From NCBI GenBank assembly GCA_900318145.1, contig ONJM01000001.1:62001-126000 (forward strand): DNA of 64,000 nt, written 5' to 3'. The notes beneath the pieces were generated by a model. That model did not search any database, had not been told where the DNA came from, and saw only the letters and a program-made list of their open reading frames with translations. This DNA is from an uncultured Eubacteriales bacterium (GTDB taxonomy: Bacteria; Bacillota; Clostridia; Christensenellales; Aristaeellaceae). This document shows positions 21,986-29,853 of this stretch, one piece after another (position 1 is the first letter of the stretch; the number at the start of each line of letters is the position of its first letter). The position numbers were made by a program, and so were the translations under genes.

Positions 21986-22633
21986 ATGCTGAACATTGAT
22001 GAACTGAAGTTTGACGAGAAGGGACTGATTCCCGCGGTCGTGGTGGACGCGGAAAACGGGAAGGTGCTGACGCTGGCGTATATGAATAAGGAAAGCCTGC
22101 GGATTTCCATGGAGAAGGGGCTGACCTGCTTCTGGAGCCGGAGCCGGCAGGAGCTGTGGCTGAAGGGGGAGACCAGCGGCAATTACCAGCATATCGTTTC
22201 CATCACGGCGGACTGCGACCGGGACGCCCTGGTCGTCAAGGTGGAAAAGGACGGGCCGGCATGCCATCTGGGAACGGAAAGCTGCTTCGGCGAAACGGTC
22301 TGGGAGAGCGAAGAGCGGCACGAGTTTACGCTGGAAGGGCTGCTGGAGCTGATCCGGGGCCGGAAGACAGAGAAAAAGGAAGGCTCCTACACCACCTACC
22401 TGTTTGAAAAAGGGCTGGACAAAATCCTGAAGAAGGTGGGCGAGGAGTCCACGGAGGTGATCATCGCCGCCAAGGACCGGGACAGGAAGGAAACGGTCTA
22501 TGAGATCGCGGACCTGACGTACCACGTGATGGTGCTGATGGTTGAGGCGGGGATTTCCCTGCAGGATATCCATCGGGAGCTGGCGTCCCGCCATGTGATT
22601 GACCATAAAGTGAAACAGGAGAAAATGACCTGA
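21986..22633 (+). CDS. hisI: Bifunctional phosphoribosyl-AMP cyclohydrolase / phosphoribosyl-ATP pyrophosphatase
   Basis: A 215-residue fusion. The N-terminal HisI domain (about residues 1-105) has [15 protein letters not shown] and the zinc/magnesium ligands in ADCDRDA and GPACH. The C-terminal HisE domain (about 120-215) has [21 protein letters not shown] and the metal-binding EExxEV and later [10 protein letters not shown]. It performs steps two and three of histidine synthesis. HisIE fusions are common in bacteria. TGATG overlap with the following phosphatase gene. Confidence 0.96.
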
Positions 22634-23391
22634 TGTTTGACCTGCACATGCATACGGTCTGGTCCGACGGAAAGAACACGGCGGAGGAAATGGTTCAGGA
22701 AGCGATCCGCCGGGGGCTGGATACGGTGGGGATTTCCGACCACAGCTCCGGGGATCCCTGCGGGATGGCGCTGGCGCAGAGCGGTGACTACCGGGCGGAA
22801 ATCGCGGAACTGAAGCGGAAGTACGCTGGGCGGATCCGGGTTCTGTGCGGCCTGGAACGGGATTATCTGACGGACGATTTCGGCCCGTACGATTACACGA
22901 TCGGTTCCGTACACTGGCTGCGCATGCCGGACGGGCACCGCGTTTCCATCGACTGGACCGCGGAGAAACAGCGCGAAGGGGCGGAAAAGTATTTCGGCGG
23001 CGATTTCTACGCGCTGGCGGAAGCCTATTACGATACGGTGTCCCGGGTGGCGGAGGTTACGAAGTGCGATATCATCGGCCACTTTGACCTGATCACGAAA
23101 TTCAATGAACAGATGCCGGTGTACGACACGCGGCACCCGCGGTACGTCCGGGCCTGGCGGAAGGCGGCGGATGCTCTGCTGAAAACAGGGCTGCCGTTTG
23201 AGATCAACACGGGGGCTGTTTCCCGTGGGTATCGGACGTCCCCCTATCCGGACGGGGAAATCTGCCGGTACCTGCTGGACCGCGGCGCGCGGCTGATCTT
23301 TTCCAGCGACGCCCACGCGAAGGAGAACATTGCCTTCGGATTTGAAACCCTGGCCGCGGCGTGGCCGGATCCGGGCACCTGCCCGTTCTGA
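22633..23391 (+). CDS. hisK: Histidinol-phosphatase, PHP family
   Basis: A 252-residue PHP-domain hydrolase with metal ligands DLHMHTVWSDG (residues 3-13), SDHSSG (about 35-40), IGSVHWL (about 92-98), a HFD region near 150 and SSDAH near the C-terminus. These match the three-metal site of Bacillus-type HisJ/HisK histidinol phosphatases. Its one-base overlap with hisIE and the lack of a phosphatase in hisB make this the expected histidinol-phosphate phosphatase. The last gene of the operon, followed by a hairpin. Confidence 0.92.
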   Translation: MFDLHMHTVWSDGKNTAEEMVQEAIRRGLDTVGISDHSSGDPCGMALAQSGDYRAEIAELKRKYAGRIRVLCGLERDYLTDDFGPYDYTIGSVHWLRMPDGHRVSIDWTAEKQREGAEKYFGGDFYALAEAYYDTVSRVAEVTKCDIIGHFDLITKFNEQMPVYDTRHPRYVRAWRKAADALLKTGLPFEINTGAVSRGYRTSPYPDGEICRYLLDRGARLIFSSDAHAKENIAFGFETLAAAWPDPGTCPF

Positions 23392-25506: not shown

Positions 25507-26289
25507 ATGCCGTTTTTGTACGAGACCCATATGCACACCTGCCTGGCAAGCGCCTGCGGCAGAAGCACCGGGAAAGAACACGCGCGGTTTTACAAAAGCG
25601 CCGGATATACGGGCATCATCATGACGGACCATTTCTTCGGCGGGAATACGGCGGTGGACCGTTCGCTGCCCTGGGAGGAACGGGTGGACCTGTTCTGGCG
25701 CGGGTATGAGGACGCGAAGGAGGAAGGGGACCGGATCGGCCTGGATGTGTTCTTCGGCCTGGAGCAGAACTTCAGCGGGGACGAATACCTGATCTACGGC
25801 CTGACGAAGGAATATATGAAGGCGCATCCGGAGATGGAGCACTGGACCCGGCGGCAGCAGCTGGACGAGGTGCACCGGCAGGGCGGATGCGTAATCCAGG
25901 CGCATCCTTTCCGGATGCGCGGGTACATGGACAAAATCCGGGTGGGCACGCTGTTCTGCGACGGTATCGAGGCGGCCAACCTCGGCAATGAACCGCTGGA
26001 CGACGCGCGGGCGTACCGGATGGGAACGGAAATGAACCTGGTGATGACTGCCGGGACGGACAACCACCATTCGCCGGTGGAAACGCCGTTCGGGGTCGCG
26101 CTGGAAAAGAAGCTGACCTGTATCCGGGATTACGTCCGGATCATTCTGGAACGGGGCCGGATCGGCCTGCACGTGCCAGAGGACAGGTTCCGCGTTTCCC
26201 CGGGCGGGGTGCCGGACGAGCGCCATTACGCGTATTTCCTGGATGAAAATGAACAGATTACAGACGCCCCGAAGCAGTGGATGGCGTGA
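25507..26289 (+). CDS. PHP-domain phosphoesterase
   Basis: A 260-residue PHP-family metal hydrolase: YETHMHTCLASACG (residues 4-17), MTDHFFGG (about 39-46), FGLEQNF (about 82), the QAHPFR segment (about 131-136) and GTDNHH (about 181-186) supply the metal ligands. It is distinct from the histidinol phosphatase upstream and resembles PHP proteins that act on phosphorylated nucleotides or sugars. Substrate unknown. GAAGGAG precedes the ATG; the gene ends at a strong bidirectional terminator and stands alone. Confidence 0.85.
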   Translation: MPFLYETHMHTCLASACGRSTGKEHARFYKSAGYTGIIMTDHFFGGNTAVDRSLPWEERVDLFWRGYEDAKEEGDRIGLDVFFGLEQNFSGDEYLIYGLTKEYMKAHPEMEHWTRRQQLDEVHRQGGCVIQAHPFRMRGYMDKIRVGTLFCDGIEAANLGNEPLDDARAYRMGTEMNLVMTAGTDNHHSPVETPFGVALEKKLTCIRDYVRIILERGRIGLHVPEDRFRVSPGGVPDERHYAYFLDENEQITDAPKQWMA

Positions 26290-26327
26290 AAAAAGCGGCC
26301 CGGTTCAGTCGAACCGGGCCGCTTTTT
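26290..26327. terminator. Bidirectional terminator between convergent phosphoesterase genes
   Basis: A 17-bp perfect stem (26290-26306 with 26311-26327), loop AGTC, with A runs on one side and T runs on the other. It serves both strands. The stop codon of the minus-strand gene (26305-26307) lies in the hairpin at the stem-loop junction. Confidence 0.92.
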
Positions 26328-26970
26328 CCATGATGCGCAGCCCGCGGCGGGTCGGCGCTTTTTTTTCCGACGTTTCCGGAAGATCGAATTCAAAAGCGGT
26401 GGAAGCGTTGATCACAGGGATTCCGTGGTAATCCCGCTGCCGCTGGAAAAACGCGGAATAGGACTGGTGCACGTGGCCGTGGATCATGACGGCGGGATGC
26501 CAGGTGTCCAGCAGCGGGCCGAAGCACTCGAAACCCCGGTGGGAGAGATGCTCCTCGTCCCCGCAGCCACGGATCGGGGCATGGGTCAGGAGAATGTCGA
26601 ACCCGCCGGCGGCGCGCAGCTTTCTCCGCAGGGAAGCGATCCGGGCAGCCATCTCCTGCTCCGTATACATATTGACGCAGTCCGGCCGGTAGCGGCAGCT
26701 GCCGCCGAGCCCGAGAATCCGCACGCCTTTCACCATCAGGATTTTTCCGTCCGCGTCCAGGCAGCCTTCCGGCGGCTTTTCCGCGTAATGGTCGTCATGG
26801 TTGCCGTGAACGTAGACCACCGGCGCGCTGGTGAAGCAGGTCAGGAAAGACAGGTAGGAGGAGGGAAGATCCCCCGCGGAGAGGATCAGATCCACCCCTT
26901 TCAGCGCTTCCCGGCACATATCTCCCCAGAGCTTGCCGGAGGGCTCATCCGCAATGGCCAGAATCCGCAT
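26305..26970 (-). CDS. Metallophosphoesterase (calcineurin-like)
   Basis: A 221-residue hydrolase: N-terminal AIADEPSG in place of the usual D-x-H, then SAGDLPSSY (D of motif GD, about 31-34), GNHDDHY (about 56-62), LTHAPIRG and the C-terminal GHVHQSY. The GD, GNHD and GHxH motifs are the metal site of this family. The first motif is atypical (ADEP instead of DxH), so metal binding may differ. It follows the ParB-like/BMP fusion by 9 bp on the same strand and is probably co-transcribed. Substrate unknown. Confidence 0.85.
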   Translation of the reverse strand: MRILAIADEPSGKLWGDMCREALKGVDLILSAGDLPSSYLSFLTCFTSAPVVYVHGNHDDHYAEKPPEGCLDADGKILMVKGVRILGLGGSCRYRPDCVNMYTEQEMAARIASLRRKLRAAGGFDILLTHAPIRGCGDEEHLSHRGFECFGPLLDTWHPAVMIHGHVHQSYSAFFQRQRDYHGIPVINASTAFEFDLPETSEKKAPTRRGLRIMEKAARFD

Positions 26971-26979
26971 CGCCTGTCC

Positions 26980-28905
26980 TCACTTTCTGTTCCAGCTGAA
27001 GGAGGAAAGCTCGGGCATCAGTTCCCCGTGGATGCCCTGCAGGCGGACCAGGGGGCGCGCTGACTCGATGAGCTCTGTTTCCTTCGGGAAGCTGCCGACA
27101 ATGTTGTCCACCAGGTAATCCATGCAGAGGATCTCAGCGGGGGTCAGGCGCCGGTCCGCCTCGCAGCGGAGGGTGCCGGCCTGGTCCCGGATCTCCCCTT
27201 CGAAGGGCGTGAAGGTGCCTTCGCTCAGCTCCTGGCGGAAATGGCTGACAATCCTGGCGGCATAGGGGTCAAACCGGGCGGAGAAGGCGACATCCAGGAT
27301 GTCGGAGCCGATGCCCCACCAGTAGTTGGTGGCGTTCTGCCGGTTTTCCGCCGGGTTGAAGGTGCCGTTCAGGATCATTTCGGAAATCAGGCGGTAGAAA
27401 AGGCCCCAGCGGGGGATCAGGGTCGCCATGTTGTCGATATCACTCCCGTTGCGGATGTACAGGCCGTAGTCCCGGGAACCGTATTTCGGCGCGGTGATAT
27501 CGCGGTTGCAGACGACCCGGATTTCCGGATCCTCGAAGGGCAGCCTGTCATTGTACCAGGAGGCGGAGAACCAGTTCAGGTAAACCTTTGCCTTCGGGTT
27601 GACCATCCGGGCGCCCAGGGCGAAGGCGTTGGCCGCGGCCGGGGATCCGTAGATCGGGTAGTCGGCAATGTATCCGATTTTTCCGCTTTCGGACAGGATG
27701 CCGGCCGCCAGCCCCAGCAGGAACTTGGCCTCATAGAACCGGATATAGTACGTCCGGATATTGGTGTAGCTGGACAGGAGGGAGCAGCAGAGGAAGCGCG
27801 CCTCCGGATGCGTCAGGGCCGGCTCGATGGTGCTGTTGAGCATGACGGGGGAGGTGGCGAAGAAGGCCGTATATCCGTCCCTGATCAGCTCTTCCACCGT
27901 CCGCTCGAAATCCGTACGGGACGGTACGACGCGGACAGCGGTTTCCAGCTTTCCCTTCAGCTTCTGCTCCGCTTCCAGGCGGCCGAGGTTGTGCCAGTAG
28001 TTCCACGCGGAATCCTCAACGGGACGGTTGAACAGGAAAGCGGCCTTCAGCTTTGAGGGGCGGAAAAGGGACGCGATGATCGGAACGGGCGGCGCGGGGT
28101 TTGCCCGGTCCATAACCAGGTTGACGCGCCCTTCGCGGGTTTCAAACTCCCGGGACATGAGCCGGACGCGCTCCTTCGTCTTTTCCTGGTCATCGTCGCG
28201 GACATCCTTGTAGCCGAAGGCGGTCAGGTAGGCCAGGAAGGCGTCGCCCGCCGGCAGCATGCCGTCCTCCCGGAAGATCGCCTCATAGGCCACGGAAAAA
28301 TAATGGTAACACTTCCGCAGGGTGAGGATCTCATCCTCCGTCCATTTGTCTCCTTCCTTCATTCCCGGCAGGGAGGCCAGCTTCTGGTACGAGCCGGGGC
28401 GGGTGAAGAGGATGCTGTACAGCCCGGTTTCCTTCGTAAAATCGCAGTATTCATAATAGGAAACGACGTCCGGATCCTCCGTGCGGGGCGGATAGACGCG
28501 GGTGACATCCGCCTCGATATCCCGGGATCCCATGGCCTTCATGACGGAGACGCGCTTGTTTCCTTCTATTATATAATAGTAGCCCATGTACTCCAGCGCG
28601 GTGACCGGCATATTGACGCCTTCGGATTCCACGCTTTCGTACAGCCGTTCCCATTTGGAGGCGAACTCGCTGCCGCTGTCCAGAATCGGCAGGAAGTTTT
28701 TTGTGAACGCTCTGGAACGGCCCTGGGAAACGGAACCCGTCACCCGGGAGAGGGGAACGTCAATGATGCCCAGCGGAAGCCGGGTCAGGCTGGACAGGTC
28801 GTGCACCTTTTCCTCCAGCACGGGAAGATAGGGATCCGTGTTGGACTGAATGGCCGCTGTGTAGATACGAAGCCCGTCGCGGCGGGCTTTACTGTAATGA
28901 TCCAT
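26980..28905 (-). CDS. Soluble fusion of a ParB-like domain and a BMP/Med-type ligand-binding domain
   Basis: A 641-residue cytosolic protein: no signal peptide, no lipobox, no membrane segment. Residues about 40-140 look like a ParB/sulfiredoxin-type nucleotidase fold (IDVPLSRV..., then YYIIEGNKRVSVMKAMG at about 110-126, which is in the position of the ParB ERR motif). A helical linker follows (about 150-265). Residues about 285-600 read as the BMP (basic membrane protein / PnrA / Med) ligand-binding fold, including YEAKFLLGLAAGILSESGKIGY (KIGY core at about 409-412). BMP proteins normally bind purine nucleosides outside the cell. Here the domain stays inside. The next gene encodes a metallophosphoesterase and the divergent gene is purC, which suggests a purine link, but that is inference. 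GGAGGT is 6 bases before ATG. Confidence 0.75.
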   Translation of the reverse strand: MDHYSKARRDGLRIYTAAIQSNTDPYLPVLEEKVHDLSSLTRLPLGIIDVPLSRVTGSVSQGRSRAFTKNFLPILDSGSEFASKWERLYESVESEGVNMPVTALEYMGYYYIIEGNKRVSVMKAMGSRDIEADVTRVYPPRTEDPDVVSYYEYCDFTKETGLYSILFTRPGSYQKLASLPGMKEGDKWTEDEILTLRKCYHYFSVAYEAIFREDGMLPAGDAFLAYLTAFGYKDVRDDDQEKTKERVRLMSREFETREGRVNLVMDRANPAPPVPIIASLFRPSKLKAAFLFNRPVEDSAWNYWHNLGRLEAEQKLKGKLETAVRVVPSRTDFERTVEELIRDGYTAFFATSPVMLNSTIEPALTHPEARFLCCSLLSSYTNIRTYYIRFYEAKFLLGLAAGILSESGKIGYIADYPIYGSPAAANAFALGARMVNPKAKVYLNWFSASWYNDRLPFEDPEIRVVCNRDITAPKYGSRDYGLYIRNGSDIDNMATLIPRWGLFYRLISEMILNGTFNPAENRQNATNYWWGIGSDILDVAFSARFDPYAARIVSHFRQELSEGTFTPFEGEIRDQAGTLRCEADRRLTPAEILCMDYLVDNIVGSFPKETELIESARPLVRLQGIHGELMPELSSFSWNRK

Positions 28906-29136: not shown

Positions 29137-29853
29137 ATGCCTGAAATCGGGATGATTCTGCGCGAGGGAAAAGGGAAAAAGGTATACGCGACCGATGATC
29201 CGGACAGGGCAATCGTCTATTTCAAGGACGAGGCGATGGCGTTTCACGGCCTGAAACGGGGAAGAATCCTCGGAAAGGGCGAAGTGAACAACGCGGTCTG
29301 TGAGCATCTGTTTTCCCTGCTGGAGCAGAACGGCATCGAAAGCCATTTTATCGAAAAGATTGACGCCAGGCACAGCCTGGTGAAGCGGTGCGAGATGCTG
29401 CCTTTCAACGTGAAGATCCGGAACCGCGTGGCCGGCAGGCTTTCGCAGCGCACGGGCCTTCCCGTCGGGCAGAAGCTGGATCCCGTCGTGGTGGAATACG
29501 AAATGCGGGAATCGGACCTGGACGTGGATCCGATGATCAACCACACGCATATCTATGCCATGAAAGCCGCCACGCCGGAAGAAATGGCGCAGATCGACAG
29601 CACCTGCCTGAAGGTGAACACCGTGCTGACGAACTATCTGAAGGAGATCAACATCGAGCTGATTGACTTCAAGCTGGAGTTCGGCCGGTACCACGGGCGG
29701 ATCATCGTTGCGGATGAGATAACACCGGATACGGCGCGCTTCTGGGACAGCAGCACCCATGAGCCCCTGGACAAGGACCGGTTCCGCCGGGATATGGACA
29801 ACGTTGCCGAAGCCTATCAGGAAGTGCTGCACCGCATGATGGGCGTGGGCTGA
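29137..29853 (+). CDS. purC: Phosphoribosylaminoimidazole-succinocarboxamide synthase
   Basis: A 238-residue SAICAR synthetase of typical length. Motifs: REGKGKKVYAT (ATP-binding region near residues 9-19), FNVKIRNRVAGRLSQRTG (about 93-110), and LIDFKLEFG (about 178-186) with the following VADEITPD. It joins CAIR and aspartate with ATP hydrolysis. It is isolated from other pur genes, with its own promoter and a strong terminator. Confidence 0.95.
   Translation: MPEIGMILREGKGKKVYATDDPDRAIVYFKDEAMAFHGLKRGRILGKGEVNNAVCEHLFSLLEQNGIESHFIEKIDARHSLVKRCEMLPFNVKIRNRVAGRLSQRTGLPVGQKLDPVVVEYEMRESDLDVDPMINHTHIYAMKAATPEEMAQIDSTCLKVNTVLTNYLKEINIELIDFKLEFGRYHGRIIVADEITPDTARFWDSSTHEPLDKDRFRRDMDNVAEAYQEVLHRMMGVG

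Follow-up and report, generated by a model that had tools for sequence, protein, structure and literature searches.

Introduction

The solved proteins nearest to the one reported here are AtzT (PDB 6pi5) and a Brucella BMP protein (PDB 3s99), which carry guanine and adenine (PMC6834077). As described there, the guanine site of AtzT involves Tyr45, Ser97, the Phe98 backbone, Glu165, Trp194, Asn218, and Asn220, with Asn169 and Thr139 behind. We describe a gene, found in a 64,000-nucleotide stretch of DNA from an uncultured Eubacteriales bacterium (contig ONJM01000001.1, positions 62,001 to 126,000; hereafter the window, with positions counted from its first letter), that encodes a BMP domain behind an N-terminal domain of predicted ParB/sulfiredoxin (Srx) fold. 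The gene adjoins one for a metallophosphoesterase, and the two appear to form a conserved pair. Like AtzT and 3s99, the fusion has the BMP fold (over residues 284-608), a stacking aromatic (W301), and a Ser (S352). Unlike them, it has no export signal, no regular adjacent ABC genes, and about 280 extra N-terminal residues, and in the window branch the equivalents of Glu165 and Arg139 are gone.

ParB-fold proteins were recently recognized as CTP, ATP, or GTP switches, and their sensor-fused forms have been little tested. A 2025 PNAS survey of ParB-CTPase-fold proteins searched PF02195 with cut_ga and, in its main text, reports fusions that bind CTP, ATP, or GTP (PMC12704722). Mutation of the Box II Arg abolished nucleoside triphosphate (NTP) binding in such fusions, and 17 of the 28 purified survey proteins showed no binding. 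The same source describes SerK, SbnI, and Srx as cases in which the fold serves as an ATP-binding enzyme module, and proposes that archaeal proteins joining a ParB fold to CBS domains couple NTP state to metabolism. Like the survey's fusions, the protein described here combines a ParB/Srx fold and a GxxR Box II with a joined partner domain; unlike it, they are given no BMP partner in the main text, where we found no mention of BMP, periplasmic, substrate-binding, phosphoesterase, or Clostridi. The survey probably missed this family because only 3 of 50 members match PF02195 (ParB_N) even at E<=1 (best E=0.0024); judging from the E values, the family falls under the PF02195 gathering cut-off of 26.3 bits. 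The archaeal ParB-CBS proteins resemble the fusion in joining a ParB fold to a ligand-sensing domain, but that domain is CBS and not BMP, they occur mainly in archaea, and the section on them gives no phosphoesterase partner.

The partner enzyme shares PF00149 and most metal-motif residues with calcineurin-like metallophosphoesterases (kin of YfcE, MPPED2, and Dbr1), and differs from them in a replaced DxH His and in its tie to the fusion gene. Within the open-licence literature of PubMed Central we found no description of a fusion of BMP with a ParB fold or of a BMP-metallophosphoesterase operon, and no title among the matches listed indicates a cytosolic PnrA/Med-type protein.

A fusion gene paired with a phosphoesterase gene

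The fusion gene lies at 26980..28905 on the minus strand, with its ATG at 28905, its stop at 26980, and a GGAGG ribosome-binding sequence 7 bases 5' of the ATG. The open reading frame (ORF) and its translation agree with the coordinates, frame, and 641-residue length given in an earlier note on this DNA. We identified 75 more distinct full-length homologues, 28-83% identical, for a total of 76 full-length loci (27 close and 49 divergent), which rules out a chance ORF. A scan of genome contigs returned 27 loci, with relatives in metagenome bins of rumen and gut Clostridia, and 26 of these aligned across nearly the entire protein. In an alignment of 50 rows (the 49 divergent homologues and the window protein), invariant residues of the N-terminal domain are G57, R63, F67, P73, E80, K84, W85, G96, E105, Y111, E114, G115, K117, R118, S120, R136, and P139, and those of the BMP part are W301, G308, Y386, R389, E392, G398, G431, W500, Y504, G531, and F568.

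Nine bases past the fusion stop, on the same strand, starts a gene for a 221-aa metallophosphoesterase (26305..26970, minus strand; PF00149 E=8e-10, PF12850 E=1.2e-8). Each of the 76 distinct full-length loci was searched for this phosphoesterase, and it adjoins the fusion in 72 (27 of 27 close and 45 of 49 divergent loci), so that the link is much stronger than the co-directional arrangement claimed previously for the window. Most commonly the phosphoesterase is downstream on the same strand (58 loci, one with a 467-base gap); at 11 loci it is downstream and convergent, and at 3 it is upstream on the same strand. On the tree of BMP sequences the three upstream cases (L072, L073, and L074) form one clade. 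The convergent cases comprise the earliest branch, L093, and 10 of the 11 members of the next group, whose remaining member, L094, is the locus with the 467-base gap. Placed on the tree, these arrangements imply two or more changes of gene order, through which the genes remained adjacent. The phosphoesterase is not adjacent at L023, L025, L062, and L071, where the genome holds one elsewhere; in three of the four cases it adjoins another fusion copy. It is adjacent in all three of the extra records recovered, which are labelled Collinsella, Subdoligranulum, and unverified phage scaffold.

The pairing is also apparent from genome content. In two samples of the class, of 382 and 391 genomes, the phosphoesterase subfamily (E<=1e-30) was found in 40 and the fusion in 39, respectively; 37 genomes have both, for a nominal Fisher value of 2e-45 that ignores relatedness and the slight difference between the samples. 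The samples were drawn separately, and two genomes may be absent from the second: G531, which carries an adjacent pair (L086), and G250, in which the fusion is cut at a contig end. In 36 of these 37 genomes, coordinates place the fusion and the phosphoesterase side by side on a single contig. Distance matrices for 46 fusion-phosphoesterase pairs correlate with r=0.67, compared with a best value of 0.18 in 2000 permutations; common species descent inflates both this mirror-tree value and the co-occurrence value. Overall, gene order and co-occurrence make it well supported that the fusion and one metallophosphoesterase subfamily constitute a conserved two-gene module, whose adjacency has been kept through rearrangements. 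We regard this pairing, which lies outside the coordinates of the feature treated in the earlier note, as the main discovery.

No third widely shared partner was detected among the neighbours, which were mechanical longest-ORF picks excluding the fusion and the phosphoesterase (147 ORFs from 40 loci, of which 137 were scanned and ten, including all four of L071, were left out). No Pfam family is represented in more than 4 of the 137 scanned proteins.

Calcineurin-like metallophosphoesterases carry the motifs DxH, GD, GNHD, H, and GHxH. In the partner enzyme the metal-motif residues D8, D34, N57, H58, H130, H166, and H168 are present in 46 of 46 sequences and H164 in 43. A phosphoesterase profile gave weak matches to MPPED2 and Dbr1 (best 3.9e-5), and the window sequence by itself gave no solved relative at E<=0.01. 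The gene also matches the PADLOC candidate-defence model PDC-S10 (E=2.4e-12) and PHROG 1649 (E=3.3e-9), probably through general metallophosphoesterase similarity. Profile searches of PHROGs and PADLOC returned no match for the fusion.

A whole-genome search gave matches in 120 of 150 genomes of the family and 111 of 391 of the class, counts that mix full-length fusions with plain BMP proteins. Full-length fusions, chosen by eye from the class match table, occur in 39 class-sample genomes under 13 family codes, and the two-domain architecture that the earlier note proposed looking for in other Clostridia is thus present there. The initial scoring took few candidates per genome, and misses are possible. 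In a sample of 398 genomes of the phylum (E<=1e-30), full-length matches were confined to the class. Outside Bacillota, a record labelled Collinsella aerofaciens (L165, NZ_OY725717.1) holds the fusion and phosphoesterase pair. The record is a 900-kb 'plasmid 6' that carries tuf, rplA, nusG, and asnS and looks chromosomal, and its label needs caution. The pair is also present on an unverified scaffold (L167, MT836456.1) that comes from human faeces and is labelled 'Bacteriophage sp.'; it is more likely bacterial DNA than phage.

The BMP domain and its pocket

The BMP domain, a type I periplasmic binding protein fold, spans residues 284-608 (27082..28056, minus strand). Pfam PF02608 matches residues 286-446 with E=4e-20 and 72.5 bits, above the curated cut-off of 24.1, and the PDB matches are AtzT 6pi5 (residues 284-608, E=2.3e-34) and 3s99 (E=1.2e-29). 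The match to Med (2hqb) is far weaker (E=0.019); of the 'BMP/Med-type' fold named in the earlier note, the BMP part stands and the Med part gives way to an AtzT/3s99 type. In the tree, the 50 fusions form one clade (support 100/100) opposite 24 non-fusion BMP rows, and with midpoint rooting AtzT and 3s99 are nearest to it.

The absence of a signal peptide or lipobox, noted previously for the window protein, extends to the family. With homologues trimmed to the start of the window protein, no lipobox-like motif was found in the first 60 residues of any of the 76 fusions. Peak 19-residue hydropathy in that segment is at most 1.46 in the 76 fusions, whereas 22 of the 25 BMP ORFs taken from loci without a fusion (some of them fetched twice) reach 1.98-2.84. 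Sixty of the 76 fusion ORFs extend in frame upstream, and in those extensions there is no lipobox and none reaches a hydropathy of 1.8. Because no signal was detected in 76 of 76, upstream extensions included, the fusion is predicted to be cytosolic. The family would be an example of a single relocation of an extracellular receptor to the cytosol, followed by remodelling of its pocket.

We compared the pocket at AtzT positions 45, 97, 98, 139, 165, 169, 194, 218, and 220, which read Y S F T E N W N N in AtzT and W S F R E G W H D in 3s99. In secreted relatives the usual reading is W/Y S F R E G W H D, and the non-fusion rows L131/L151 (the same gene) and L155 are identical to 3s99. Among the 25 non-fusion ORFs, 23 have Glu165, 24 have Trp194, and 23 have Arg at position 139. 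The 50 fusions have Trp at position 45 in every row, Ser97 in 35, Glu165 in 7 (Asp in 5, Gly in 35, Arg in 3), and Trp194 in 10; position 139 is Lys in 34 and Arg in 12.

The early fusion branches L093, L085, L086, and L088 read W (S/C) P R E (G/S) W H N and keep a purine-type pocket; therefore the fusion probably began with one that changed later. An ancestral purine link is probable on this comparison, as early-branching fusions keep most of the purine pocket of the nearest solved relatives. The window branch has W S P K G A S N D, which does not match the purine pocket of the AtzT/3s99 type. The stacking aromatic (W301) and the Ser (S352) of the guanine site remain in this branch but the residues equivalent to Glu165 and Arg139 do not, so it may bind a different ligand. 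Loss of Trp194 is unsure because the stretch from 194 to 220 is gapped and the window has a shifted Trp, one column after 194.

The predicted ParB/Srx-fold domain

The N-terminal domain covers residues 41-138 (28492..28785, minus strand). The window protein by itself has no Pfam match for this part. In a single pairwise profile-profile comparison with hhalign, the 76-row alignment as query matched 30 clostridial ParBs over residues 41-138 with E=2e-4 and a probability of 47%. With the same query, controls gave 0.27 (reversed ParB), 0.62 (phosphoesterase alignment), and 0.094-0.76 (ten column shuffles), all well above the real match. With residues 1-285 as query the ParB value is E=5e-4. Chance matches among the controls reached E=0.0038 (residues 165-285 against the phosphoesterase, over 29 columns) and 0.02 (residues 1-285). 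NCBIfam gave only sub-threshold matches for the fusion, including Noc at E=0.043.

Against solved structures the order of the two subfamilies varies. A 50-row profile of the domain (A2) has sulfiredoxin 6ky4 as its best match (E=0.0022, versus 0.17 for ParB), and profile A1 gives 0.021 for ParB and 0.028 for sulfiredoxin. We refer to a ParB/Srx fold and choose no subfamily, because the profile-profile comparison gives ParB at E=2e-4 but the best solved match is a sulfiredoxin; the profile match that suggests this fold is modest.

The hhalign alignment pairs R63 with the Arg of the ParB QPR motif and G115-N-K-R118 with GERR; about 14 additional residues separate the two. The EGNKRVS motif (residues 114-120; 28546..28566, minus strand) thus occupies the GxxR phosphate-binding Box II position of ParB, and E114, G115, K117, R118, and S120 are unchanged in 50 of 50 rows. 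These results bear out what the earlier note had read from the letters, namely a ParB/sulfiredoxin-like N-terminal region with EGNKRVS at the ParB ERR position. More generally, profile searches recovered both folds and no overlooked N-terminal signal came to light.

The middle region (residues 165-283; 28057..28413, minus strand) lies where the helix-turn-helix (HTH) of ParB would follow. Residues 165-285 do not match ParB (hhalign E=0.25, not better than the reversed control at 0.29), and Pfam detected no HTH in the window protein. ParA-type families occur in 2 of the 137 scanned neighbour proteins, as do ParB-type ones; at L074 the phosphoesterase-fusion pair has a ParA-like gene upstream. 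Given the lack of an HTH match and of a regular ParA neighbour, we reject a canonical segregation ParB.

Proposed function and alternatives

The previous proposal of a sensor or regulator remains plausible, as a fusion of ParB-like and BMP domains lacking an export signal is co-directional with a phosphoesterase in the window. We tentatively favour a cytosolic, ligand-gated NTP switch that controls or feeds the phosphoesterase, a model suggested by domain content and gene order and each of whose biochemical steps we infer. The BMP domain would clamp onto an intracellular small molecule, which in early-branching members might be a purine base or nucleoside and in the window branch perhaps something different. 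The open/closed movement of the BMP domain would set NTP binding or hydrolysis by the ParB-fold domain via the GNKR motif, and the state of the switch could be passed to the phosphoesterase by contact or by a shared metabolite. The phosphoesterase may then remove phosphate from a nucleotide-like compound, and the overall role would most likely be nucleobase or nucleotide balance.

A wider claim, about which we are more doubtful, is that the pair represents an undescribed intracellular signalling module of Clostridia and perhaps Coriobacteriia, in which an internalized purine receptor, a ParB-type NTP switch, and a dedicated phosphoesterase let a ligand gate nucleotide turnover. If true, such a module would provide the first ParB-fold switch in the cytosol to be gated by a BMP domain. 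The clear genetic partner and a receptor domain of known ligand class make nucleotide and ligand directly testable.

Several observations weigh against the switch model and the module behind it. With the counterparts of Glu165 and Arg139 gone from the window pocket, the protein may bind its ligand differently or not at all. The DxH His of the phosphoesterase is missing in 46 of 46 sequences (Glu in 37, Pro in 5, including the window, and Ala in 4), making catalysis uncertain. The ParB-fold assignment is built on the modest profile match given above, and part of the co-occurrence and mirror-tree signal reflects shared descent. In G044 the phosphoesterase sits elsewhere, and in G321 the two genes are on different contigs, with neither fetched stretch containing the other gene. 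Three of the 40 phosphoesterase genomes (G229, G363, and G387) have no full-length fusion in the stretches fetched. Finally, the convergent arrangement means that there is no single shared transcript in that clade.

A kinase/phosphatase pair is one alternative, which we consider unlikely. Here the ParB/Srx domain would phosphorylate a small molecule captured by the BMP domain, and the phosphoesterase would reverse the reaction. A phosphatase partner suits a kinase, no ParB-type HTH was found, and the best solved match of the 50-row profile is a sulfiredoxin, ahead of ParB. The use of the fold with ATP by SerK, SbnI, and Srx (PMC12704722) also fits. Arguing for ParB instead, similarity to it is longer (residues 41-138) than similarity to sulfiredoxin (73-135). 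We know of no precedent for a BMP domain as a substrate carrier.

About equally improbable, in our view, is that the protein is a purine sensor tied to purC in the species group of the window. The purC gene (29137..29853, plus strand; PF01259 E=3.4e-71) is divergent from the fusion, as the earlier note stated. Of the close homologues (68-100% identical), 26 have 1 kb or more of sequence upstream, and all 26 carry purC on that side less than 400 bases from the fusion (41-395 bases); it is divergent at 21 of these loci and shares the fusion's strand at the other 5. At the 27th close locus, where only 297 bases upstream are present, tBLASTn did not find it. The link thus survived an inversion within this group, which speaks mildly for the purine idea there and raises the odds of such a sensor. 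The carriage of guanine and adenine by the relatives AtzT and 3s99 (PMC6834077) also fits. However, tBLASTn detected no purC anywhere in the sequence fetched for the 49 divergent loci, 46 of which reach 1 kb or more upstream. The link is therefore confined to the window's group, and we reject purC as a general member of the module. Purine-pocket residues are altered in the window branch, and an Rfam search at gathering score found no family anywhere in the window, hence no known purine riboswitch; in ten divergent loci it found tRNA and RNase P alone. These negatives leave the purine link with no riboswitch support. The purine-sensor hypothesis of the earlier note accordingly fares unevenly: its purC argument holds in the close group and fails for the module at large, and early fusions speak for an ancestral purine pocket whose key Glu and Arg the window branch has lost.

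A DNA-binding regulator is opposed by the middle region, which does not match ParB, HTH included, and by the absence of a Pfam HTH match in the window protein. In such a regulator, resembling LacI, the BMP part would be the effector domain, and the N-terminal domain or the middle region would bind DNA and regulate the phosphoesterase or neighbouring genes. ParB-fold proteins are often DNA binders, the effector domain of LacI is similar in fold to BMP, and the fusion and purC have an upstream region in common in 21 close loci. The phosphoesterase is nevertheless the sole widely conserved neighbour, and we judge this explanation quite improbable.

An odd BMP transport protein, or a regulator of a BMP ABC transporter from inside the cell, is very unlikely: the Collinsella-labelled relative is annotated 'BMP family ABC transporter substrate-binding protein', but a signal peptide or lipobox occurs in 0 of 76 fusions, the 24 non-fusion BMP rows fall outside the fusion clade, and ABC_tran occurs in 4 of 137 neighbour proteins, so that fusions have no regular ABC genes beside them, whereas the non-fusion BMP genes at L144 and L153 are followed by an ABC ATPase and a permease. 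This relative is the one annotated member encountered in the analysis, and its filing illustrates how gene annotation can mislabel the fusion as part of a transporter.

Other features of the loci

Around non-fusion BMP genes, 9 of 18 ORFs were scanned, with downstream genes scanned at two loci. Phosphoribosyltransferase-domain genes lie directly upstream of the BMP genes at L144 (2283-2894) and L148 (3939-4514), which suggests purine-base transport for salvage by these receptors.

At five close loci (L006, L009, L010, L024, and L034) the same-strand purC is 41-157 bases upstream, and would form a purC-fusion-phosphoesterase operon. In the window, two PHP-family phosphoesterase-like genes lie past the module phosphoesterase, at 22633-23391 (PF02811 E=5.8e-16) and at 25507-26289 (a weak match, 0.019). 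The latter ends 15 bases from the module phosphoesterase gene, on the opposite strand.

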